From assembly GCF_000213055.1 (NCBI RefSeq), contig NZ_CM001165.1, forward strand, positions 5,788,945-5,852,944: a stretch of 64,000 nucleotides of DNA, given 5' to 3'. This DNA is from Streptomyces sp. Tu6071. Lineage in GTDB: Bacteria; Actinomycetota; Actinomycetes; Streptomycetales; Streptomycetaceae. Both the position numbers and the translations under genes were made by a program. Positions 14,605 through 64,000 of this stretch are shown here, piece by piece; the first letter of the stretch is position 1; every line of letters starts with the position of its first letter. A model generated the notes under the pieces. It made no database searches. It had not been told where the DNA came from and saw only the letters and a program-made list of their open reading frames with translations.

Positions 14605-14722
14605 CCGGACGGCGTACCCCCGTACGCCGTCCGCCCCGCGCGACGGAGCCCCGTCCCCCACCCCACCACCCACCACCGCCCCCGCAGCAGGAGGCGGTCC
14701 ACCCGAGGAGCAGCAAGCCACC

Positions 14723-16312
14723 ATGGCAGTCACCAGACGCCGCAAGACCACCGTCCTGGCGGCGGCCGTCGCCACCGCGGCGGCGCTCGGCACCGGCGCG
14801 CTCACCCTGCCCGCCGCCTCCGCCGCCCCGCGGGCCGCCGGGGCACCGACCATCACGCTCAAGGACGGGACGCTCGACTGGGGCGTCAAGGAGTCCTTCC
14901 GCAAGTACCTCCTCTCGCCCATCGCGCACGGCAAGATCACCATGGGCGACGGCGCCACGCAGGCCGAAGGCAACGGCCCCTTCACCTTCACGGGCGGCAC
15001 CGGCACGTACGACACCGGCAGCCACGGCACGCACACCGCCTTCAACGGCAGCGTGCGCTTCGAGGGCCACGAGGGCGTCCTCGACATCGAGCTGAGCGAC
15101 CTCCAGGTCACGACGACCACGACCGGCGGCGGCATCTCCGCCGACGTCACGACCGTCGCGGACGGCAAGTCGACGACCGATCAGGATGTCGTCATCGCCG
15201 ACCTGAGCCTCGACGGCATCCGTCCGGGTACGGGCGCGGGCGGCGCGATGGTCTTCAAGGACATCCCCGCCACGCTCACCGCCGACGGCTCGAAGGCGTT
15301 CCAGGGCTTCTACCAGGCCGGTGCCGTGCTCGACGCCGCGACCCTCTCGGTGACCGCCGACAGCGGCAAGCCCTCGGAGGAGCCGACGACGGGCCCGACG
15401 GACGAGCCCACGACGGGTCCGACGGACGAGCCCAGCGGCAAGCCCTCCGAGGAGCCGAGCGGCAAGCCGTCGGAGGAGCCGAGTGGCAGGCCGTCCGAGG
15501 AGCCGGGCGGTGAGCCGAGCGGTGAGCCCACCGGCAAGCCCAGCGAGACCCCGGCCGGCTCCGGCGGCGTCGCCAAGGGCGCCCTGACCTGGGGCCTCAA
15601 GGAGTCGTGGCGCAAGTACATCGCGACCGGCGGCGGCAGCGAGGTCTCCGGCGGCGCGAAGAAGAGCGGCGACGTCTTCACCTTCCCGTACACGTCGGGC
15701 ACCGCCGACGCGGGCGCCGAGAAGACCGACGCGGCCTTCGGCGGCGGCGTGCGCTTCACGTACAAGGCGCACGGCATCGACATGGAGTTCAGCGACGTCA
15801 AGGTCGTCACGAGCGGCACCAAGGGCACCCTGACGCTCGACGTCACGACCCCGCAGGGCACCAAGGACGACGTCGACTTCGCGAAGCTCGACCTCTCCTC
15901 GGCCTCCTACGCCGTCAAGAACGACGTCCTGACGCTCGACCAGGTCCCCGCGGTCTTCACGGCGGCGGGCGCGGCGGCCTTCGCCAACGACACGACCGGC
16001 TCGCTCTACAAGGCCGGGGACGCCCTCGACCCCGTCACCGTGAGCCTCGCCCTGAGCGACGACGCCGACCTCCCGGCCGCGGGCTCGGGGTCGGGCAACG
16101 GCGGCGGCACCGGCACCGGCACCGGAGCGGGCGGTACGGGCTCCGGCGCCAGCGGCTCGGGCTTCGGCACGAGCGGCGCGACGGGCTCCCTCGCCTCGAC
16201 GGGCGCGGGCCTGCCCACGGGTCCGCTCCTCGGCGGTGCCGCCGCCGTCGTCGCGGCCGGAACGGGCGCCCTGTACGCCGCCCGCCGCCGCCGCGCCACC
16301 GAGCAGGCGTGA
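14723..16312 (+). CDS. Wall-anchored heme-binding protein, two HtaA domains with LAxTG sortase signal
   Basis: 529 residues from ATG 14723. Signal peptide, HtaA domain 1 (about residues 45-210, DGTLDWGVKESFRKY), a Pro/Glu/Ser/Gly repeat linker (about 215-275), HtaA domain 2 (about 280-455, GALTWGLKESWRKY), a Gly-Thr-rich stalk, then LASTG, a hydrophobic helix and RRRR. The last three parts are the layout of a class E-type sortase substrate, so the protein should be bound covalently to peptidoglycan. Together with the membrane-anchored HtaA protein upstream it would form a wall-to-membrane heme relay ending at HmuTUV. The spacing of 118 bp suggests the same transcript. A strong hairpin follows it. 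Confidence 0.92.
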   Translation: MAVTRRRKTTVLAAAVATAAALGTGALTLPAASAAPRAAGAPTITLKDGTLDWGVKESFRKYLLSPIAHGKITMGDGATQAEGNGPFTFTGGTGTYDTGSHGTHTAFNGSVRFEGHEGVLDIELSDLQVTTTTTGGGISADVTTVADGKSTTDQDVVIADLSLDGIRPGTGAGGAMVFKDIPATLTADGSKAFQGFYQAGAVLDAATLSVTADSGKPSEEPTTGPTDEPTTGPTDEPSGKPSEEPSGKPSEEPSGRPSEEPGGEPSGEPTGKPSETPAGSGGVAKGALTWGLKESWRKYIATGGGSEVSGGAKKSGDVFTFPYTSGTADAGAEKTDAAFGGGVRFTYKAHGIDMEFSDVKVVTSGTKGTLTLDVTTPQGTKDDVDFAKLDLSSASYAVKNDVLTLDQVPAVFTAAGAAAFANDTTGSLYKAGDALDPVTVSLALSDDADLPAAGSGSGNGGGTGTGTGAGGTGSGASGSGFGTSGATGSLASTGAGLPTGPLLGGAAAVVAAGTGALYAARRRRATEQA

Positions 16313-16336
16313 GCGCCCACCCGGCCTGAGGGCCCC

Positions 16337-16383
16337 GGGGGCGGGGCGGTCGCTGTCGTCACGTGACCGCCGCCCCGCCCCCG
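16337..16383 (+). terminator. Terminator hairpin after the HtaA genes
   Basis: A G/C stem (GGGGGCGGGGCGGTC on the left, GACCGCCGCCCCGCCCCC on the right) with a 13-base loop, 25 bp after the stop. No T-run follows, as usual in Streptomyces. Confidence 0.7.
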
Positions 16384-16471
16384 CGCCCTCGCCCCGGCCG
16401 GTGAGCGGCCACTCACCGGCCACCCGGGCCGCGCCCTCCGCCGCACGTACGCACGTCCCCCGTACGCGCGC

Positions 16472-16543
16472 GCGCGGGGCGCGGCCCTCGCGTCCGCGCG
16501 GGGCGCGGCCCTCGCGTCCGCGCGGGGCGCGGCCCTTCGCGGC
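16472..16543. repeat. Three 24-bp tandem repeats upstream of phzF
   Basis: Three copies of a GC-only-looking 24-bp unit beginning GCGCGGGGCGCGGCCC start at 16472, 16496 and 16520; the last is degenerate. They lie in the non-coding stretch 16313-16603, which otherwise holds only the terminator and the phzF leader. Confidence 0.8.
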
Positions 16544-16603
16544 CCCTTCGCATGCGCGCCCCGCGCCGACCGCCCCCGCCCGCGTATGCGGTTCAATGCG
16601 GGC

Positions 16604-17275
16604 ATGAGCACATCAGGCACCCCCGGCCTCGACGTCCTGCGGGTCTTCTGCGACGCCGCCGGGCGGCACGGCAACGCGCTCGGCGTCGTCCGCGAGGGCG
16701 CGCGCTTCCCCGGCGACGCGGAGCGCCAGGCGCTCGCCGCGCGGCTCGGGTACAGCGAGACCGTCTTCGTCGACGACCCCGAGCGCGGCGTGCTCGACAT
16801 CCGCACTCCCGGCACCGCGCTCCCCTTCGCGGGGCACCCGCTCGTCGGCTGCGCCTGGCTCCTCGACCTGCCCGCACTCGCCCCGCCCGCCGGGCCCGTC
16901 GAGGCCCGCTCGGACGGCGAGTTCACCTGGATCACCGCCCGCGCCGCGTGGGCGGCCGACCGCGTCCCCGTCCGTTGCGGGAGCCCCGAGGAGGTCGACG
17001 CGCTGCCCGTCCCCGCGCCGGGAGACGGCTGGCGGTACGCCTGGGCCTGGGAGGACGAGGCCGCCGGGCGGGTACGGGCCAGGGGCTTCCCCGGGCGCGG
17101 GGACGGCATCGACGAGGACGAGGCGACGGGCTCGGCGGCGATCGCGCTCACGGCGCACCTCGGGCGCGCGCTCAACATCCGCCAGGGCAGGGGCTCGCAA
17201 CTCCTCACGGCGCCGGGACCCGACGGGCTCGTCGAACTGGGCGGGAGAGTGCGGTTCGCGGAGGGGCCGCGCTGA
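16604..17275 (+). CDS. PhzF-family isomerase/epimerase-like protein, short form
   Basis: 223 residues from ATG 16604. Conserved PhzF features are the N-terminal VFCDAAGRHGNALGVV, the catalytic Glu in YSETVFV (about residue 51), FAGHPLVGCAWLL and DEDEATGSAAIAL near the end. PhzF enzymes isomerise the phenazine precursor DHHA, but most relatives act on unknown substrates in the diaminopimelate-epimerase fold. Typical length is 260-300 residues, so this copy is short, with a compact region between the two lobes. It sits inside the iron/heme island without any phenazine genes, so a phenazine role is not supported. An upstream ATG at 16586 is in frame but has no ribosome site. Confidence 0.82.
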   Translation: MSTSGTPGLDVLRVFCDAAGRHGNALGVVREGARFPGDAERQALAARLGYSETVFVDDPERGVLDIRTPGTALPFAGHPLVGCAWLLDLPALAPPAGPVEARSDGEFTWITARAAWAADRVPVRCGSPEEVDALPVPAPGDGWRYAWAWEDEAAGRVRARGFPGRGDGIDEDEATGSAAIALTAHLGRALNIRQGRGSQLLTAPGPDGLVELGGRVRFAEGPR

Positions 17276-56260: not shown

Positions 56261-56347
56261 GGGGTGCTGAACGGCTGTGAGGAACCCGTGAACGCGGAGG
56301 GAGGGGGTGCGTCGGGGCGCCCGTGGCGCTTGAGGCAGGATGCGCAT

Positions 56348-56725
56348 ATGCCCGAACCCGCAGAGTCGCCCGAGCCGGAACCGGCGGACGAGACCTCCGC
56401 CGACCCCGAGAGACGCGCCCTGCCCGCCGACGCCGCGGCGATGTGGCTCGTCCGGGCCTCCGGTGAGCTGGATCTCGACACCGTGGGAGCGCTTCGCGAG
56501 GAGCTGGAGGAGGCCGCCGCGCGCTACCCGGTCGTCATACTCGACCTGAGCCGCGTCGACTTCGGCGACTCCAGCTTCCTCAACCTCCTCATCCGCGTCC
56601 GCGCCACGACCCGGCTGCGCCTGGTAGCGCCCACCGAGCCGCTGCGCCAGCTCTTCGCGCTGACGGGCACGGACACGGTCCTCGACGTGTACGACACGAT
56701 CGGCGAGGCGATCGACGCGGGCTGA
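56348..56725 (+). CDS. STAS-domain anti-anti-sigma factor
   Basis: 125 residues from ATG 56348. STAS fold: WLVRASGELDLDTVGALREEL, then VILDLSRVDFGDSSFLNLLIRVR, where the Ser of DSS (about 76-78) is the usual phosphorylation site. The N-terminal 30 residues are an acidic Pro-Glu extension. Such proteins bind an HATPase anti-sigma factor and release a sigma factor when dephosphorylated. The convergent gene 56733 encodes exactly such a kinase, eight bases away, so they likely form a partner pair, perhaps for a SigB-like factor not in this window. Confidence 0.9.
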   Translation: MPEPAESPEPEPADETSADPERRALPADAAAMWLVRASGELDLDTVGALREELEEAAARYPVVILDLSRVDFGDSSFLNLLIRVRATTRLRLVAPTEPLRQLFALTGTDTVLDVYDTIGEAIDAG

Positions 56726-56732
56726 GGACCCG

Positions 56733-57245
56733 TCACCGCTCCCCGGACCGCGGCGGCTTGCGCTGCGCGGGCACGAAGCCGGGGTGCTCGTACGTGCTGT
56801 GGGAGGACGTCAGCGGCAGCCGAGCCCGCACCGTCTTGCCGGAACCCGGTTCCTCCATCACCTCCACGCGCGCGAGCCGCCGCACGAGCCCCCACCCGTA
56901 CCCGCCCTCGCGCACGAGCGGGCGCGGCGTCCGCTCGACCGGCATCGCGTCCGACCCGTCCGAGACGCTGATCTCCACCTCGCCGTCCCCGATGCTCACC
57001 CGGAACCCGGTGACGCCGCCCGCGTGCCGCACGGCGTTGCTCACCAGCTCCGAGGCGACGAGCACGGCATCGGCGAGCACGAGCACGTCCACGGGCGGCC
57101 GAACCGCCAGCAGGGCGTCGTACACCCGCTCCCTCGCCTCTCCGGGGCGCAGCCCGCCCCCGCCCCGGCCCCCGAGCCCCTCGCCCTTGTTCTCGCCCTC
57201 GATGCCGTGCCCTCCGGCATGCCCGTCCTCGTCCGACACCACCAC
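56733..57245 (-). CDS. HATPase_c anti-sigma/serine-kinase (RsbW-like)
   Basis: 170 residues. Three GTGs in a row (57245, 57242, 57239) make the exact start uncertain. GHKL ATPase with N-box LVASELVSNAVRHAG (about 60-74), G1-like SDGSDAMP and G2 GGYGWGLVRRL. RsbW-type proteins phosphorylate STAS antagonists and hold sigma factors. Its partner is probably the convergent STAS protein. The first 40 residues are a Gly/Glu-rich disordered tail. Confidence 0.88.
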   Translation of the reverse strand: MVVSDEDGHAGGHGIEGENKGEGLGGRGGGGLRPGEARERVYDALLAVRPPVDVLVLADAVLVASELVSNAVRHAGGVTGFRVSIGDGEVEISVSDGSDAMPVERTPRPLVREGGYGWGLVRRLARVEVMEEPGSGKTVRARLPLTSSHSTYEHPGFVPAQRKPPRSGER

Positions 57246-57357
57246 TCACCTGCCCGCACTCGCTCCGCGTCCGGTCTCACCCGCCCCTGTGCACCGGGTG
57301 CCCCGAGCGGGGCGCGACGCACCTGTTTTGTGGGGAGAGGCTGTGGCGGGCTCAGGC

Positions 57358-60300
57358 TCAGGCGCTCGGAACGCGGGCGAGGGCGGCACGGAGGGTGTCG
57401 GCGGGGTCGGGGACGGTGAAGCCGAGGTCGCGGAGCTCGGCGACCACCCGGCGGATGGTGGTGTCACGGAGGAGGGCGGTGTGGTGGAGAAAGTGCAGGG
57501 GGAAGCCCTCGTGCCGGGAGAGCGAGCGGTGCCTCGCATCGACATCGGCGAGCGCGACGGCTTCCTTGAACGACATGCCGTCCGGCATGTCGGCCCGTGA
57601 CACGCGTATGCGGTACGAGGTGAGGACGCGGACGACGTCGGCGGGAGGGATGTTGAGATCGCGTGCGAGGGGCAGCACGAAGTGGAAGGGAATGACGTCG
57701 GCGCTGGTCAGTTCTCTCCACGCACCGGCGGCCGACAGGATCTCCGCGTCGAACGGCCCAGGCCGTGCGGGGACTTCCAACGGCAGGTCGAAGCCGTACG
57801 CGCGCAGGCGAGCGATCCTTTTCCGCAAGGCTTCCGGGTCACCCCCGTCCGCGAAGAGGTACGCGTAGGGCAGCGGGCCCGGCGGCATGAAGTCCTGGGG
57901 CTTCCACAGCGGGAGCGAGGGGAAATCCCCGGCGTCCGCGTCCTCCGGGAAGAGGGCGGGGACGGTGAAGCCGAGTGCCCCCAGCCTGTCCCGGACCACG
58001 AGGGGCGGAAGCCCCAGCGCCTCGGCGTGAGTGACGATCATCCTCGGTGTCACGGGCTCCTGCCGCTCCAGCCACGGGTATTCGCCGTCCGCCGACCGGC
58101 TCAGGAGCCGCAGCAGTTCGTGGTCCGGGCGGCCGGGAAGCCCCGAGCTGTCGACGCGCAGGCCGAGGCCGAGAGCGGAGAGCCGGCGGCACACCTCGCC
58201 GGTCGGGAGATCCAGGGCGAGGGCCAGGGCGGCGATGTGCCCCGGGGGAACGTCGCCGCCGGGACCGAGGAACCGCAGGCCCGTGGAACTGCCGGGCGCG
58301 GAGAGACGGAGCAGGGGCTCCGTCTCGGCCGTGCGGCGCCACCGCTCGTACTCGGCCGTTCCCAGGGGTTCCGGACGGGCGTGGCGAGCCGGGTCGTGAG
58401 CGGCGGTGCGACGGTGAAGGGGCGTGTGGAGGGGACGATGCGCAGAGGCTTCTCCCTCGTGGGGGTATCCGAGGTCCATGAGCTGGGCGGCGAGAGCCCT
58501 CGCGGGGCGCCCGTACGCGTGCGAGTCGATGTTCGTCCTCGGCAGACGTCGCCCCGGCCAGTGGCCCTGCGAGGTTTCGCGCGCTCGGACCAGGAGCCAC
58601 TGGTCCGAGGCGCGCGCTGTGCGCAGCGGTCGCCGCGACAGCACCTCCGGACACAGCTCGGCCAGCGAGCTGAGCGCGTCCCGCCGTCCGTGGGCGAGGA
58701 CACGCCATACGTAGATGTGGTCGGGCGCGTAACCCTCCGGCCGTACCACCCAGCTGTTCATCCCGCGGGACTGCTCCGGCAGGAGCAAGGAGACGTCCGC
58801 GGGAAACGTCCCCGTGAGGGGAGAGCAGAGAGGAACTCCCCGGTGCGTGATCTCGCGCCCCTGGCGGGCGAAGGCATCACCGACGAGGTCCGCCAGCGCG
58901 GCGCTGCCGTTCATCACGGAACGGAACCACTCGCTGAGCGGGAAGTCCGCGGGCACGTCCGCGAACACGGCCGCGGCCCGCTCGAGCAACGCGCCGATCG
59001 CGGGTCCGGCGTCATCGACGACGTGCTGCCGGTCGACGGAGAGCCGCTCGGGCGCGTCGGGGCCGCGCAGATTGACCACGGCCCCGGCCAGCCCGGCGTC
59101 GGTCCGTGCGAGTACCCCGCTCGGGTGCAAGGGCGACACCACGAGTCCGTCCACGAGCAGTCCGCCCCCTTCCTGGCACCAGAAGACCTGGGCCCCCTCC
59201 GGCTCGCGGGTCCAGGCGAGGGACCAGCCACTCGCGTTGATACCGGGGGGTTCCCGGAAGCGGTACTCGATGTCTCGCGTCCGCAGTCGCCCCGCCTCCC
59301 ACGTCGCCCACAGCGTCCCGTCCTCCGCCACCGTCCCGAACTCCGCCACCCCGAGCACCCGCTTCAGCACGTTCACGCACGACCACTCCTTTGCCACCAC
59401 CCCCTCTCGCAGGTACAGCCGCACCTTCGTCCCCGGTGCCCCTCTGTCCGCCTCCCGCACGATGCGGAACAGGTGCTCGGGGCCGCACACCGAGGCCCGC
59501 AGCACGGGCCCCGGCACGCCTTCCGGGCTCATCCGGCACGTCGTGACCCGGATCTCCTCGGCCAGCATGAAATAGCTCAACACCCCGATGCCGAAACGGC
59601 TGTTGGGGTACAGCCGGACCGGCGGGTCGAGCGCCTCCCACCGCGCCCGCTCCAGGCGGAACTCGGCCTGCTCGGCGAAGCGGGCGCCCGCGTGCGAGAA
59701 GACGCCGCGCAGCTCCGCCTCGCCCATCCCGACGCCGTTGTCCTCGCACTCCACGTACCTGCGCCCGTCCTCGTCCACGTCCTGCGTGAAGCGGATCCGT
59801 CCCTCGTAGGCGTTCGGCAGTGCACCCGTGCGGTCCAGGTACTGGCTCCGCGCGCGACGGTAGCGGCAGGCGTCCAGCGCGTTCTGGTAGAGCTCGCGGA
59901 CCGCGAGATCCCGGTCCTTGTACAGCTCGACGCCGACCGCGAGGCTCAGGAAGCGCCGGTCGTCGCTGCGGAACCGCGCATACCCCTCGAAGACGCCTCG
60001 CCCCGGGACCACTCCGGAGGAACTCAGGCGTGCGGGCAGCGCAAGGGGGACGATGCCCGTGGCGCGCACGGCGTGCAGCACCGTGTCGAGTCGCGCGGTG
60101 TACGCGCGCAGGGCCTCGACCACTGCCTCGTGATGGCACTCGGCCCGCAGGACGGGGAGTTCGGCCGTCCCGCCCCACGTCGCCCCGGCGAGCGTACGGC
60201 GCAGCCCGGCCATGTCCACGGGGTACGGGATCGCGACGTGCTCGGCGACGATGTCGGGCAGCCCGGCCGCCTCGACAGCCATCCCGTGCGCGAGCGTGGC

Positions 60301-61131
60301 CAGAAGGGCGAGCCGACGGAAGCGGATGCGCTGCGGCCCGCTCCCGCTGCGCACCCGGTCCTCCTCGGGCAGTTGGTGCAGGTGCTCGGGATGGCAGACG
60401 TCGGGACCGCGGCGCAGCCCGTGCAGCAGCGTCGCCAGCCGCTCGGCGTCCAGCACGCCGCCGAGCGGGCGCACGCACTCACCCAGTTCCGCGAGCATCC
60501 CGGCCACGGACTCCGGCTCGGCGAACTCCTGGTCCCGCGCGAGCCAGCGGTGGAAGAGCCACCAGCCCACGACCGGCTCGGCCGCCGCGTTCCGCCGCGC
60601 CCGGCGCACCAGCGCCTCGTGGCCCTCGGCGAACACCTCGAACCGCCGCCGTACGGGTTCCGCCCGGGCCCGTACCGCGAGCGACCACGGCTCCACTCCG
60701 GCCACCTCGGCGGCGCGGCGCAGGTAGTGCGTACGGTGCAGGAACGGCAGCAGGACCAGAAGCGCCGCCTCGGCGGGAAACAGATCGAGCCCGTCCGGCT
60801 CCGTCAGCCGCTCGATGTGCTCCAGGAACCGCAGAGGTACCTCGGCGTCGTGCCACGGATCCGTTCCCGGCTCCCGCCGCGACGCGGCCAGCCGGCCCAC
60901 GACCGCGGCCACGAGCGACCGGTGCTCCCGCGTCTCCCGTTCCGGCGGCACAAGGTCCCATATCGCCGAGGCGCCCGCCGCGCGCACCCATGCGTCCGGC
61001 TCCGCCTCGTCCTCGGACGTTCCGGGGGGAACCGGAGCCTCCGGCGGTGCTTGCAGGTACAGATTTCTCGCCTGGAAGACGTTCCCCACCACGGTGCCGT
61101 CCATGGAGTTGTGGCTGTCGCCCTCGCTCAC
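57358..61131 (-). CDS. Giant Hsp90/GHKL-ATPase protein with C-terminal winged-helix-like repeats
   Basis: 1,257 residues from GTG 61131 (GAGG upstream; ATG 61104 is an alternative). A short tag MDGTVVGNVFQARNLYLQ (about 10-27) opens it, a motif also at the N-terminus of many actinobacterial conflict proteins. A helical region follows (about 30-400) that may be a degenerate HD-like or coiled module. Then a complete Hsp90-type GHKL ATPase: N-box ELYQNALDACRYR (about 412), G1 DNGVGMGEAELRG (about 462), G2 SRFGIGVLSYFML (about 510) and GTKVRLYL (about 565). A middle domain with RLSVDRQHVV follows. From about 944 to the end are roughly five repeats of 60-70 residues, each ending in LG(F/L)xVP-like turns, predicted wHTH. 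No nuclease or toxin domain is seen. Directly beside an integrase, it is probably an element-borne conflict/defence sensor. Function inferred only. Confidence 0.72.
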   Translation of the reverse strand: MSEGDSHNSMDGTVVGNVFQARNLYLQAPPEAPVPPGTSEDEAEPDAWVRAAGASAIWDLVPPERETREHRSLVAAVVGRLAASRREPGTDPWHDAEVPLRFLEHIERLTEPDGLDLFPAEAALLVLLPFLHRTHYLRRAAEVAGVEPWSLAVRARAEPVRRRFEVFAEGHEALVRRARRNAAAEPVVGWWLFHRWLARDQEFAEPESVAGMLAELGECVRPLGGVLDAERLATLLHGLRRGPDVCHPEHLHQLPEEDRVRSGSGPQRIRFRRLALLATLAHGMAVEAAGLPDIVAEHVAIPYPVDMAGLRRTLAGATWGGTAELPVLRAECHHEAVVEALRAYTARLDTVLHAVRATGIVPLALPARLSSSGVVPGRGVFEGYARFRSDDRRFLSLAVGVELYKDRDLAVRELYQNALDACRYRRARSQYLDRTGALPNAYEGRIRFTQDVDEDGRRYVECEDNGVGMGEAELRGVFSHAGARFAEQAEFRLERARWEALDPPVRLYPNSRFGIGVLSYFMLAEEIRVTTCRMSPEGVPGPVLRASVCGPEHLFRIVREADRGAPGTKVRLYLREGVVAKEWSCVNVLKRVLGVAEFGTVAEDGTLWATWEAGRLRTRDIEYRFREPPGINASGWSLAWTREPEGAQVFWCQEGGGLLVDGLVVSPLHPSGVLARTDAGLAGAVVNLRGPDAPERLSVDRQHVVDDAGPAIGALLERAAAVFADVPADFPLSEWFRSVMNGSAALADLVGDAFARQGREITHRGVPLCSPLTGTFPADVSLLLPEQSRGMNSWVVRPEGYAPDHIYVWRVLAHGRRDALSSLAELCPEVLSRRPLRTARASDQWLLVRARETSQGHWPGRRLPRTNIDSHAYGRPARALAAQLMDLGYPHEGEASAHRPLHTPLHRRTAAHDPARHARPEPLGTAEYERWRRTAETEPLLRLSAPGSSTGLRFLGPGGDVPPGHIAALALALDLPTGEVCRRLSALGLGLRVDSSGLPGRPDHELLRLLSRSADGEYPWLERQEPVTPRMIVTHAEALGLPPLVVRDRLGALGFTVPALFPEDADAGDFPSLPLWKPQDFMPPGPLPYAYLFADGGDPEALRKRIARLRAYGFDLPLEVPARPGPFDAEILSAAGAWRELTSADVIPFHFVLPLARDLNIPPADVVRVLTSYRIRVSRADMPDGMSFKEAVALADVDARHRSLSRHEGFPLHFLHHTALLRDTTIRRVVAELRDLGFTVPDPADTLRAALARVPSA

Positions 61132-61187
61132 CCCGTACCTCACTTCGCTCGCTGCGGAGAATCTAGACCAGAAGCGGGCACGGGAAC

Positions 61188-61235
61188 GGGCCGTGGGCCG
61201 CACCTCCCCCGAAGGGGAGACGCGGCCCACGGCCC
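61188..61235. terminator. Strong double hairpin between the integrase and Hsp90 genes
   Basis: Perfect 14-bp inverted repeat GGGCCGTGGGCCGC (61188-61201 / 61222-61235) whose loop contains a second stem CTCCCC/GGGGAG. It lies 57 bp before the Hsp90 start and 156 bp after the integrase stop, so it likely insulates the two genes. Confidence 0.78.
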
Positions 61236-61390
61236 GAGTACGGCCGGTTCGGGGTGTGCGACCCCGGGCCTTCCTAGATGTCGAAGTACAGGTGTGAAAG
61301 CCCTGTGACCAGGAAAGACGTATGTCTGGAGGACAGGCGGTGCACAAAGGGTGCACCAGCGGGCTCTGAGAGCGACTCGGTGGTCCTGCT

Positions 61391-62668
61391 TCATGCTGCG
61401 GGCCGGTACCGCTGGCCGATCGCCCTGCGTGCCCGCTCGACAGCTCCGGTCACTCGGTGGACGTAGCGGCGAAGGGTAAAGGCGGGATCCTCGTGACCGA
61501 GGAGATCGGCGAGGGTGTATACGTCAACGCCTTCGTTGATCGCCTCAGACGCGTAGAGGTGCCGGAGGGCGTGCATCATTTTGTCGCGACACTTCTCCCA
61601 CTTGCGCCCCCTTCCGACAGGCTTGTCGTTGAGGGTCTTGATCACGCCGATCGCCTCCAGGGCGCTCTTCCAGAGGTAGTTGAAGTAGTTCTTGTTCAAC
61701 GGCTTGCGCTCCCGGGTGGTGAACATCAGGAGCACCGTTACTGGCTCGCCGTCTTTGGTCATCCAGGGCAAGGTGACCTCCACCGGCGGGTGCTCGCGCA
61801 TGTGCTCGATGAGCAGCCCGGCCAGCGGATCGCCGATCGGCACGAAGCGGTCCCTCGGGTCTTCCTCCGTGCCGCCTTTCGGTGGTGCGAAGACCAGAGT
61901 GCCTCGATCGTGACTGATTTGCCGGCGGATGTGGACGACCTTGTTCTTGTGCAGCCAGTTGACGTCGGTGGGGCTGAACGCGAAGACCTCGCCCTGCCTC
62001 ATGCCGAGACCTCGACCGCAGTCGACCGTGGCCTGGTAGGGCTTGGGCAGGTGCGCCTGTAGGGCATCCGTCTGCTCCCACGACAGGGGTACATCCTTGG
62101 CCGCCTTCTTGGACCGACGGGGTTTCACGCGCTTCACCGAGCCGGTCTCGCAGGGGTTTTTGGCGATCAGGTCATCGTCCACGGCCATGGCCAGGATGGA
62201 CGAGAGGTGCGTGAAGACCAGCCCGACCGTGGTCTCGTCGAGAACCTGCATCCGACGCTTGATCCAGGTCTGCACGGTGGACGCTTTGATCTGGCGAAGC
62301 TTGAGCGAGCCAAGAGGTCCGATGATGTGATTCCTGACGCGAGATTCGTACTGGGCGTTAGTCCTGGGGTTGGCGAAAGTCTGGTTCGCCAGCCACTGCT
62401 CGGCCACTGCCTTGAGCTGAGCTTCGCCCCTTCGAGGGTCGATGTACGTGCCGTCGTCGACACTGCCCTGCATCCTCGTGAGGTGCAGCCGAGCGTCCTC
62501 GTACCGGTCGAAGCTCTCGCTCTGCTGCTGCCCCTCCGGGTCGCGCCATCGAGCCAGCCACCGCTTGCCGCGACCATGCTCGCGGGACGGAACCTTCTTA
62601 TGAGAGGTACAGGTCTCTTCTTTGGCTCCGGGTCGCTTCTTGTGCCAGCGGTCATACGGCTCAGACAT
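61391..62668 (-). CDS. int: Tyrosine site-specific recombinase (integrase)
   Basis: 425 residues from ATG 62668. N-terminal AP2-like arm-binding and core-binding regions (RWLARWRDPEG, SRVRNHIIGPLG). The catalytic domain has Arg in GLGMRQGEV (about 226), HxxR in HALRHLYAS (about 364), His in LLGHEDP and the nucleophilic Tyr in RRYVHRV (about 402). It integrates and excises an element of the actinomycete ICE/phage type. Divergent from the excisionase gene 435 bp away. A broken acyl-CoA dehydrogenase lies 930 bp away, suggesting the att site there. Confidence 0.94.
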   Translation of the reverse strand: MSEPYDRWHKKRPGAKEETCTSHKKVPSREHGRGKRWLARWRDPEGQQQSESFDRYEDARLHLTRMQGSVDDGTYIDPRRGEAQLKAVAEQWLANQTFANPRTNAQYESRVRNHIIGPLGSLKLRQIKASTVQTWIKRRMQVLDETTVGLVFTHLSSILAMAVDDDLIAKNPCETGSVKRVKPRRSKKAAKDVPLSWEQTDALQAHLPKPYQATVDCGRGLGMRQGEVFAFSPTDVNWLHKNKVVHIRRQISHDRGTLVFAPPKGGTEEDPRDRFVPIGDPLAGLLIEHMREHPPVEVTLPWMTKDGEPVTVLLMFTTRERKPLNKNYFNYLWKSALEAIGVIKTLNDKPVGRGRKWEKCRDKMMHALRHLYASEAINEGVDVYTLADLLGHEDPAFTLRRYVHRVTGAVERARRAIGQRYRPAA

Positions 62669-63601: not shown

Positions 63602-64000
63602 ATGAAGACGCTCGACCACACGTATCATCATCGCCGCGCAGGCCCTGGGCATCGCGCAGGGCGCCCTCGACTACGCCAAGGGCTACGTCCAGGAGCGCAA
63701 GCAGTTCGGTAAGGCCATCGCCGACTTCCAGGGCATTCAGTTCATGCTCGCCGACATGGCCATGAAGATCTCCGCCGCGCGCGCCCTCACGTACCAGGCC
63801 GCCGCCTCCGAGCGCGGCGACGCCGACCTCACCTACCAGGGCGCCGCCGCCAAGTGCTTCGCCTCGGACGTCGCGATGGAGGTCACGTCCGACGCCGTCC
63901 AGCTCCTGGGCGGCTACGGCTACACGCGCGACTACCCGGTCGAGCGCATGATGCGCGACGCGAAGATCACCCAGATCTACGAGGGCACCAACCAGGTCCA
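63602..64000 (+). pseudogene. 5'-truncated acyl-CoA dehydrogenase, cut at the element border
   Basis: From ATG 63602 the first codons (MKTLDHT) match the middle of Streptomyces acyl-CoA dehydrogenases, where MKTLDHTRI is followed by [15 protein letters not shown]. The next bases are out of frame by two, so the homologous frame proceeds from 63621: [20 protein letters not shown], then [19 protein letters not shown] and [19 protein letters not shown] to the window end. The N-terminal two thirds (FAD and substrate lobes) is absent on the left. The enzyme would oxidise acyl-CoA in fatty-acid or branched-chain catabolism; this copy cannot. The last dozen residues lie outside the window. Confidence 0.82.

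Follow-up and report, generated by a model that had tools for sequence, protein, structure and literature searches.

What does a bacterial protein that carries an Hsp90-type ATPase between a helical region and an array of helix-turn-helix (HTH)-like units respond to, and through what partner does it act? The question is raised by a gene in a 64,000-nucleotide stretch of the Streptomyces sp. Tu6071 genome (hereinafter, the window), for which a first-pass annotation had described a multidomain protein of conflict type with an implied partner. The gene and its multidomain product are real (57358-61131, minus strand, 1257 residues; a 97% identical protein is on record), and a Pfam scan yields the domain order iHD-CE, Hsp90 N and middle domains, and C-terminal HTH-like array, an architecture already known to Pfam. 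What is new is the tie of an Hsp90-type protein to an amyloid-signalling motif: judged by profile comparison, the N-terminal tip of the window protein belongs to a motif family of NLR-type receptors and Bell-like proteins. The reading that we favour, with a probability of roughly 0.58, is that the protein is an Hsp90-switched receptor which signals through this NLR-type motif to a Bell-like effector.

Homologues were collected with residues 1-700 as the query (1152 homologues at E<=0.001 among 7989 scored candidates), and the best 80 of the 293 loci found in named genomes were retained; all the kept loci whose record gives a genus name are actinobacterial. The N-termini of the homologues share the consensus NxVxGxTVxGxVVQAGxIGxVxV, and a profile, denoted A1, was built from 35 rows picked by eye from 57 non-redundant segments, all from iHD-CE proteins and including the window row. 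A1 reaches at least 10 bits in 95 of 118 N-terminal tails and in 55 of the 78 tails outside the profile, a score that shuffled tails attained once in 20 rounds of 118; part of the misses are proteins whose called start falls inside the domain. For the window protein, an alternative downstream start (ATG at 61104) is possible and would cut the motif. The tip had been noticed before as a 'GNVFQA-type tag', which is indeed there; the kinship with the motifs of NLR-type and Bell-like proteins, its most informative part, had been missed. The N-terminus differs in two clades, one of Actinomadura and one of Streptomyces, the latter having conserved neighbours (by eye, recR-like): in L041, L054, L083 and their relatives, which belong to these two clades, the motif is absent, these three proteins carry five or six PF24410 repeats, and the N-terminus of L041 is weakly HTH-like (a match to HTH_31 below its cut-off, E=0.007). 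NLRs, too, typically swap their N-terminal modules.

The same profile, at E<=0.01, finds 108 places in 72 of the 295 genomes of the genus, five of which are iHD-CE genes by coordinate; because few first-look candidates were scored per genome in these searches (6 for iHD-CE, up to 28 for A1 and 16 for the Bell-like profiles), absences in the genus genomes are soft. Twenty regions around the stronger non-iHD-CE matches were fetched, in which 32 open reading frames (ORFs) carry the motif at 12 bits or more. Pfam, applied to 20 of these ORFs, identified seven TPR proteins and one vWA protein, and left 12 without a family. Among the TPR proteins, L167, L169, L183 and L186 exceed the NB-ARC cut-off, L173 matches AAA and NB-ARC weakly, L181 has a weaker AAA match and L168 has TPR only; the motif sits in the N-terminal part of the TPR/NB-ARC proteins. 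Nine of the 12 family-less ORFs are Bell-like by sequence: they fall into two related-looking kinds of about 140-150 residues, to which the called frame may add an N-terminal extension, and the motif lies close to their C-terminal end. The genes for the receptor and the small protein overlap in L173 and L176 and are divergent in L183. In PMC7889193, BASS motifs are described as N-terminal on NLRs and C-terminal on Bell domains, with the genes adjacent or overlapping, and we call the small proteins Bell-like because their size, tail and gene order fit this description.

The motif also occurs on the vWA-domain protein (L177:4232-6721, residues 271-295 of the called frame) and on two large proteins with no Pfam family and with P-loop-like stretches recognized by eye (L182:4888-6567 and L186:4990-8808), which adds to the non-NLR carriers. 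Two small proteins encoded near Bell-like genes (L179:3086-3544 and L185:6290-7048) have it near the N-terminus, together with a strongly hydrophobic segment (19-residue means of 2.0 and 2.4, respectively), and are possible membrane effectors with reversed order.

In the opposite direction, a profile of 24 Bell-like tails and NLR-type N-termini (one row from the vWA protein, two from ORFs outside the Pfam-scanned set and six from the L006 and L010 clusters described below) matches 76 of 121 iHD-CE proteins, with the best match in the first 60 residues in all 76; in the window protein it scores 15.2 bits over residues 4-23, and five rounds of 121 shuffled proteins gave no match. Because A1 or proximity to an iHD-CE gene led to each row of this profile, the reverse test shows consistent position and specificity, not independence. 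The behaviour of the shuffled sequences with both profiles and the constant location of the reverse match bear on the explanation that the motif is a composition artefact, with short Gly/Val/Gln-rich tails being alike by chance; the motif is short and the window copy scores only 13.1 bits with a profile that omits it, and still we disfavour such a coincidence as extremely unlikely.

The putative switch of the receptor retains all its ATPase motifs (N-box, DNGVGM and FGIGVLSYF), as the first-pass annotation had stated; RELYQNALDA is unchanged across 42 aligned sequences, the window protein among them, and its HtpG counterpart is RELISNASDA. Similar to HtpG and other Hsp90 chaperones, the protein has a middle domain behind the N domain; it differs from them in scoring 43.6 bits against the NCBIfam HtpG cut-off of 371, and in that no Hsp90 C-terminal dimerisation domain was seen within the aligned ranges, with a variable region and the HTH array present after the middle domain instead. 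The window protein has no match to a P-loop STAND NTPase (NB-ARC, NACHT) at E<=1 and no fused toxin family in Pfam, the latter in agreement with the earlier description.

The helical N-terminal region, for which an effector activity had been suggested as one of two possibilities, turned out to be an iHD-CE domain whose HD dyad is broken (PF24401, 306.7 bits; cut-off 27). The HD dyad and a later Asp are the ligands of the HD superfamily. In an alignment with HD-CE proteins of the same genus, all six iHD-CE proteins (the window protein, P0001, and five others) have another residue in place of the dyad Asp, such that LHDAA of the HD-CE protein L234 becomes LHRTH in the window protein and FLYRV, FLHRV, FLHQV or FLFRV in the others; none of the six keeps the second His of HDxxH or the later Asp, and the first His is retained only in P0001 and P0092. 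The HD-CE proteins L234-L237 retain all the ligands, and the truncated L239 retains the first two motifs. Because the dyad Asp, the second His and the later Asp are replaced, an enzymatic effector activity of the iHD-CE domain, such as that of a nucleotide-degrading HD-CE effector, is unlikely, and a catalytic effector in the helical region was rejected; the domain would more naturally serve as an adaptor or scaffold.

The C-terminal array matches PF24410 (wHTH-HSP90_Na-assoc) in four stretches with 67.8 bits against a cut-off of 23; a fold search with the array alone gave nothing significant. Compared with the orthologue from Streptomyces sp. SID11385, the Hsp90 N domain is 95% identical (dN/dS 0.085) and the iHD-CE domain 83% identical (0.24), residues 601-780 and 781-940 are 57% and 44% identical (0.53 and 0.55, respectively) and the HTH array is 53% identical (0.76); the N-terminal motif with its linker is variable too (54%, 0.45). 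In homologue pairs, the median identities of these five domains rank in this order in five bands of Hsp90 identity. Because the C-terminal half evolves fast and the Hsp90 N domain slowly, the pattern appears receptor-like, combining a slow switch with a putative fast sensor.

The iHD-CE domain was found in only 45 of the 295 genus genomes, and for this reason the gene is accessory rather than a core housekeeping gene of all Streptomyces; this patchiness supports the view of a conflict-type protein. It also bears on the explanation that the protein is a stress or DNA-binding regulator unrelated to invaders, with an HTH array that binds DNA and a motif that is an oligomerisation tag. The HTH-like array itself (Pfam, model) and the one Streptomyces clade that keeps the gene at a fixed site near recR-like and aspartokinase-like genes (by eye) would be compatible with such a role; given the distribution and a tip common to NLR-type and Bell-like proteins, we consider it highly improbable.

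For the receptor reading we infer a trigger, ATP-driven clustering, amyloid templating, a choice of effector and cell death, in the following form. The protein would be an intracellular receptor laid out as a bacterial NLR, in which an Hsp90 ATP switch replaces the STAND NTPase. The C-terminal HTH-like half would sense either an invader or some host component that has been disturbed; ATP binding would close the Hsp90 N and middle domains, and the copies would gather via the dead, adaptor-like iHD-CE domain. The gathered N-terminal motifs would nucleate an amyloid-type fold that would be passed to the like C-terminal motif of a small Bell-like effector; this effector would then stop or kill the infected hypha.

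Searches of the loci with Bell-like proteins (tblastn) detected Bell-like genes or remnants adjoining the Hsp90-type gene in three of the 80 loci (L006, L010 and L022). The Hsp90 motif of L010 matches each of the Bell tails there with a score of 69, compared with 40 and 54 for the NLR motifs against their own Bell tails and 43 for the NLR motifs against the Hsp90 motif; in L029, a motif-bearing NB-ARC protein (13.7 bits) is encoded about 6 kb from the Hsp90-type gene. Altogether, 4 Bell-like genes or remnants were seen in 1.34 Mb of flanking sequence vs 0.24 expected from the genus density (359 type-1 and 97 type-2 matches in 295 genomes, hand-counted), with P=1e-4, or P=0.002 when counted as 3 loci; this excess does not prove a link, given that defence genes tend to lie together in any case, that several genera contributed the flanks and that the calculation used an average genome size. 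In another genome of the genus, a type-2 Bell-like gene with a motif match lies about 17 kb from the iHD-CE gene (G104:C1:5878005-5878364 and 5895232-5896269).

The adjacency of the gene to Bell/NLR pairs in L006 and L010, along with the Hsp90-type core, could also indicate a chaperone that binds NLR/Bell amyloids and dissolves or blocks them, acting as a brake on the signalosome; the chaperone HSPA8 is reported to disassemble RHIM amyloid (PMC10624691). The fast C-terminal half and the patchy distribution, however, look receptor-like, and no Bell-like gene was found in the available flanks of 77 of the 80 loci, which makes a regulator of this kind quite unlikely.

For the signalling receptor, a candidate effector is encoded in the genome of the window itself. 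This Bell-like protein (G000:C1:4491412-4491714) matches A3, a profile of Bell type 1 built without the motif, with E=3.5e-28; its gene is located 1.36 Mb from the Hsp90-type gene, and neither an NLR beside it nor an NLR remnant behind it was seen. Its tail, GDTYNSVSGTVHGGLVVQGRDF, and the window motif, GDSHNSMDGTVVGNVFQARNL, have 11 of 23 aligned residues in common, and none of 5000 shuffles was as good. In SID11385, the Bell-like orthologue is 84% identical, its tail agrees with the Hsp90 motif of that genome in 12 of 23 positions, and behind the gene lies an NLR remnant, broken in frame, that bears an N-terminal motif of its own (L229). Profile searches and a check of the site found neither the iHD-CE gene nor the orthologous Bell-like gene in the related genome G010. 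The window Hsp90-type protein and the Bell-like protein at ~4.4914 Mb are a candidate pair, the weakest link of the proposal. L196 (G000:C1:1437670, E=2.6e-9) is a second Bell-like protein of the window genome; its tail, GKGVVVGRDLHVRADGG..., is different, and its gene immediately precedes one that looks, by eye, P-loop and NB-ARC-like; these two perhaps form an effector/receptor pair of their own with another motif.

Bell-like genes co-occur with iHD-CE to some extent: type 1 is found in 36 of the 45 iHD-CE-positive genus genomes vs 157 of the 250 others (Fisher p=0.027), type 2 in 17 vs 63 (p=0.10) and either type in 39 vs 178 (p=0.04), p values that are weak and uncorrected for genome size or kinship. 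The match between Hsp90 motif and Bell tail within genomes was assessed for 29 of the 80 loci, in 27 genomes, with Bell type 1 (A3) only, so that the type-2 genes of L006 and L010 were excluded. Of the 48 A3 matches, 30 were read; 15 of the 27 genomes were kept by eye for a motif-like tail (G309 with an odd one), and the window genome was included, whereas 12 genomes, three of them without a match, were dropped and other tails of the kept genomes (L224, L225, L226 and L228) were left out. Over the resulting 16 genomes the match gives p=0.03, or 0.11 without SID11385 and 0.07 without the window genome.

Several observations weigh against a receptor that signals to Bell-like effectors. When SID11385 and the window genome are both left out, the matching falls to p=0.25, and general matching within genomes is unsupported outside the window's clade. 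Because the broken NLR remnant follows the Bell-like gene of SID11385, the true receptor of that protein may have been the NLR. A1 misses the Bell-like protein of the window genome at E<=10 (the tail scored directly yields 10.5 bits) and finds in this genome no second strong motif carrier, only the window gene (E=7.5e-6, with its own row in A1) and a chance-level 12-bit match; next to the window gene, neither tblastn of the loci nor A1 on the genome revealed a Bell-like gene or an NLR gene that carries the motif. The motif reaches at least 10 bits in only 30 of the 80 fetched loci, and of the 45 iHD-CE-positive genus genomes only 5 have an iHD-CE gene that shows it at E<=0.01. The scores within L006 are poor: 18 for the Hsp90 motif against the Bell tail, 20 for it against the NLR motif, and 14 for NLR against Bell. 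The enrichment near the Hsp90-type gene could be ordinary clustering of defence genes, and for the large majority of the loci no Bell-like neighbour was found, as indicated above. Finally, the Bell-like label follows a description, not a published profile, and the hydrophobic segment is modest (19-residue mean ~1.0-1.3 in type-1 proteins without the N-terminal extension); the dependence of the reverse profile on A1 belongs here, too.

An alternative is a stand-alone conflict protein that acts without a Bell-like effector; the motif would serve self-assembly only, and the assembly itself would be the output, through sequestration or through DNA binding of the HTH array. Apart from the rarity of Bell-like neighbours and the lack of a second strong A1 match in the window genome, this explanation is favoured by the lack of a conserved partner gene: clustering of the neighbours in 78 of the 80 loci (the bait gene is uncalled in two) gave only lineage-specific synteny and scattered common families, and among the clusters listed (up to 40, each in at least 5 loci) the biggest non-bait family occurs in 18 of the 78 loci at scattered positions. 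Nevertheless, the motif family is otherwise seen partly as receptor/effector pairs, and the Hsp90 motif of L010 resembles the Bell tails more closely than the NLR motifs do, so that a stand-alone protein appears somewhat unlikely and the Hsp90-switched receptor with a Bell-like effector remains the preferred reading.

HSP90- and HSP70-related modules have reportedly been described as STAND analogs, a predicted immune switch, by Nicastro et al. 2023 (NAR 51:11479; referenced in PMC12839542), and the iHD-CE/Hsp90/wHTH architecture reportedly figures in that study. The window protein shares its domain order with the iHD-CE/HSP90/wHTH conflict proteins (PF24401, PF24410); a partial literature search did not find an NLR/Bell-type tip described for them, nor text linking this motif to any Hsp90 protein, and a word search for Hsp90 in PMC8195603 and PMC7159879, two papers from the group behind these domain names, gave no mention. 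The BASS signalosomes of Dyrka et al. 2020 (NLR and Bell effector with a shared amyloid motif; described in PMC7889193) are similar in that the window family carries the motif N-terminally, with Bell-like genes or a remnant beside it in the three loci named above, and different in that the switch is Hsp90 (GHKL) instead of a STAND P-loop NTPase and that no such neighbour was found in the other 77 loci. The BASS3 peptide printed in PMC8086366 differs by eye from the motif of the window family. With the receptors bearing RHIM or the fungal PP motif, the family shares a hydrophobic-Q-small-Gly core, VQAG being its commonest form and VQVG the RIPK3 core (PMC7618891); those receptors come from other kingdoms and have other architectures, and the likeness lies in the core pattern.

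Table 1. Features of the iHD-CE/Hsp90/HTH-array gene, its surroundings and the clusters with Bell-like genes (window coordinates unless a locus is named)
Feature	Position	Strand	Remarks
iHD-CE / Hsp90-like ATPase / HTH-array protein	57358..61131	minus	1257 aa, GTG start at 61131
N-terminal amyloid-signalling-type motif	61051..61122	minus	residues 4-27, GDSHNSMDGTVVGNVFQARNLYLQ; 13.1 bits with the window sequence excluded from the profile
iHD-CE domain, HD dyad broken	60004..60990	minus	residues 48-376; PF24401 E=3e-91
Hsp90 N and middle domains	58855..59964	minus	residues ~390-759
ATPase N-box RELYQNALDA	59869..59898	minus	residues 412-421
ATPase motif DNGVGM	59725..59742	minus	residues 464-469, aligned to HtpG
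ATPase motif FGIGVLSYF	59569..59595	minus	residues 513-521, aligned to HtpG
C-terminal HTH-like array, about five units	57376..58245	minus	residues ~963-1252; PF24410 four stretches, model, rates; fast evolving
L006, Streptomyces sp. NRRL F-6492	Bell-like 14640-15149; NLR 15173-17272	minus; plus	directly behind the Hsp90 gene
L010, S. olivochromogenes			two Bell-like/NLR pairs, one divergent from the Hsp90 gene, ~0.8 kb between
L022, NRRL S-244			frame-broken Bell-like remnant just upstream of the Hsp90 gene
Tyrosine integrase beside the gene	61391..62668	minus	PF00589 E=1.4e-10; not shown to be part of the system
HATPase_c protein, conserved left flank	56733..57245	minus	Pfam; context only
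STAS-domain protein, conserved left flank	56264..56725	plus	Pfam; context only
Variable site right of the HATPase_c/STAS pair	window 57325-61391; L004; L134:9446-12306		the window genome, SID11385 and G010 compared

The first-pass annotation had also relied on the integrase next to the gene. Comparison of near relatives shows that the site right of the HATPase_c/STAS pair (Table 1) is variable. In SID11385, the orthologue is located between glnA (named by eye) and the same pair, and no integrase was seen on its 15.7 kb contig; because the same site is occupied there without a visible integrase, the case for the integrase as the carrier of the gene is weakened, and it is not needed to explain the position of the gene. 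G010, in which the aligned left flank is 86-90% identical, has 2.9 kb of other DNA at the site, where transposase-like pieces and one sigma-like gene were recognized by eye, followed by glnA. In the window genome, the HATPase_c/STAS side is unchanged, and the far side consists of the integrase, an acyl-CoA dehydrogenase-like fragment and mobile-looking DNA (by eye). The fragment, C-terminal by eye, lies just past the integrase (window 63744-64000, L084:2789-3076), and the next ~77 kb contains transposase pieces, VirD4-like and other conjugation-type genes (by eye), so that the right edge of the window borders a mobile or rearranged region. Spread of the gene via plasmids or phages was rejected, as no plasmid or phage record spans 80% or more of the window protein in one place; the best plasmid match, on a Streptomyces collinus plasmid (NC_022001.1:43380-44462), is an Hsp90 core 46% identical to residues 386-753, with the rest of the architecture outside the match. 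PADLOC assigned neither the Hsp90-type protein nor the neighbouring integrase to a defence system, and Rfam and tRNA scans of the window gave nothing.

Non-NLR cases of amyloid signalling such as this one are called for in a review (PMC7889193). The family of the window protein provides a concrete, testable bacterial case, an Hsp90-type ATPase tipped with an NLR/Bell-type motif and located beside a Bell/NLR pair in 2 of the 80 loci. A broader view, which we hold tentatively and at somewhat less than even odds, is that bacterial amyloid signalling exists independently of NLRs, with a chaperone-derived Hsp90 switch having independently taken the place of the receptor within one and the same network, sharing effectors with NLRs and swapping N-terminal modules (amyloid motif or HTH-like). 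If the receptor reading is true, Hsp90 would itself act as a receptor switch, beyond its role as a helper of NLRs, and the finding suggests that bacteria may also run amyloid-type immune signalling from a chaperone-like switch.

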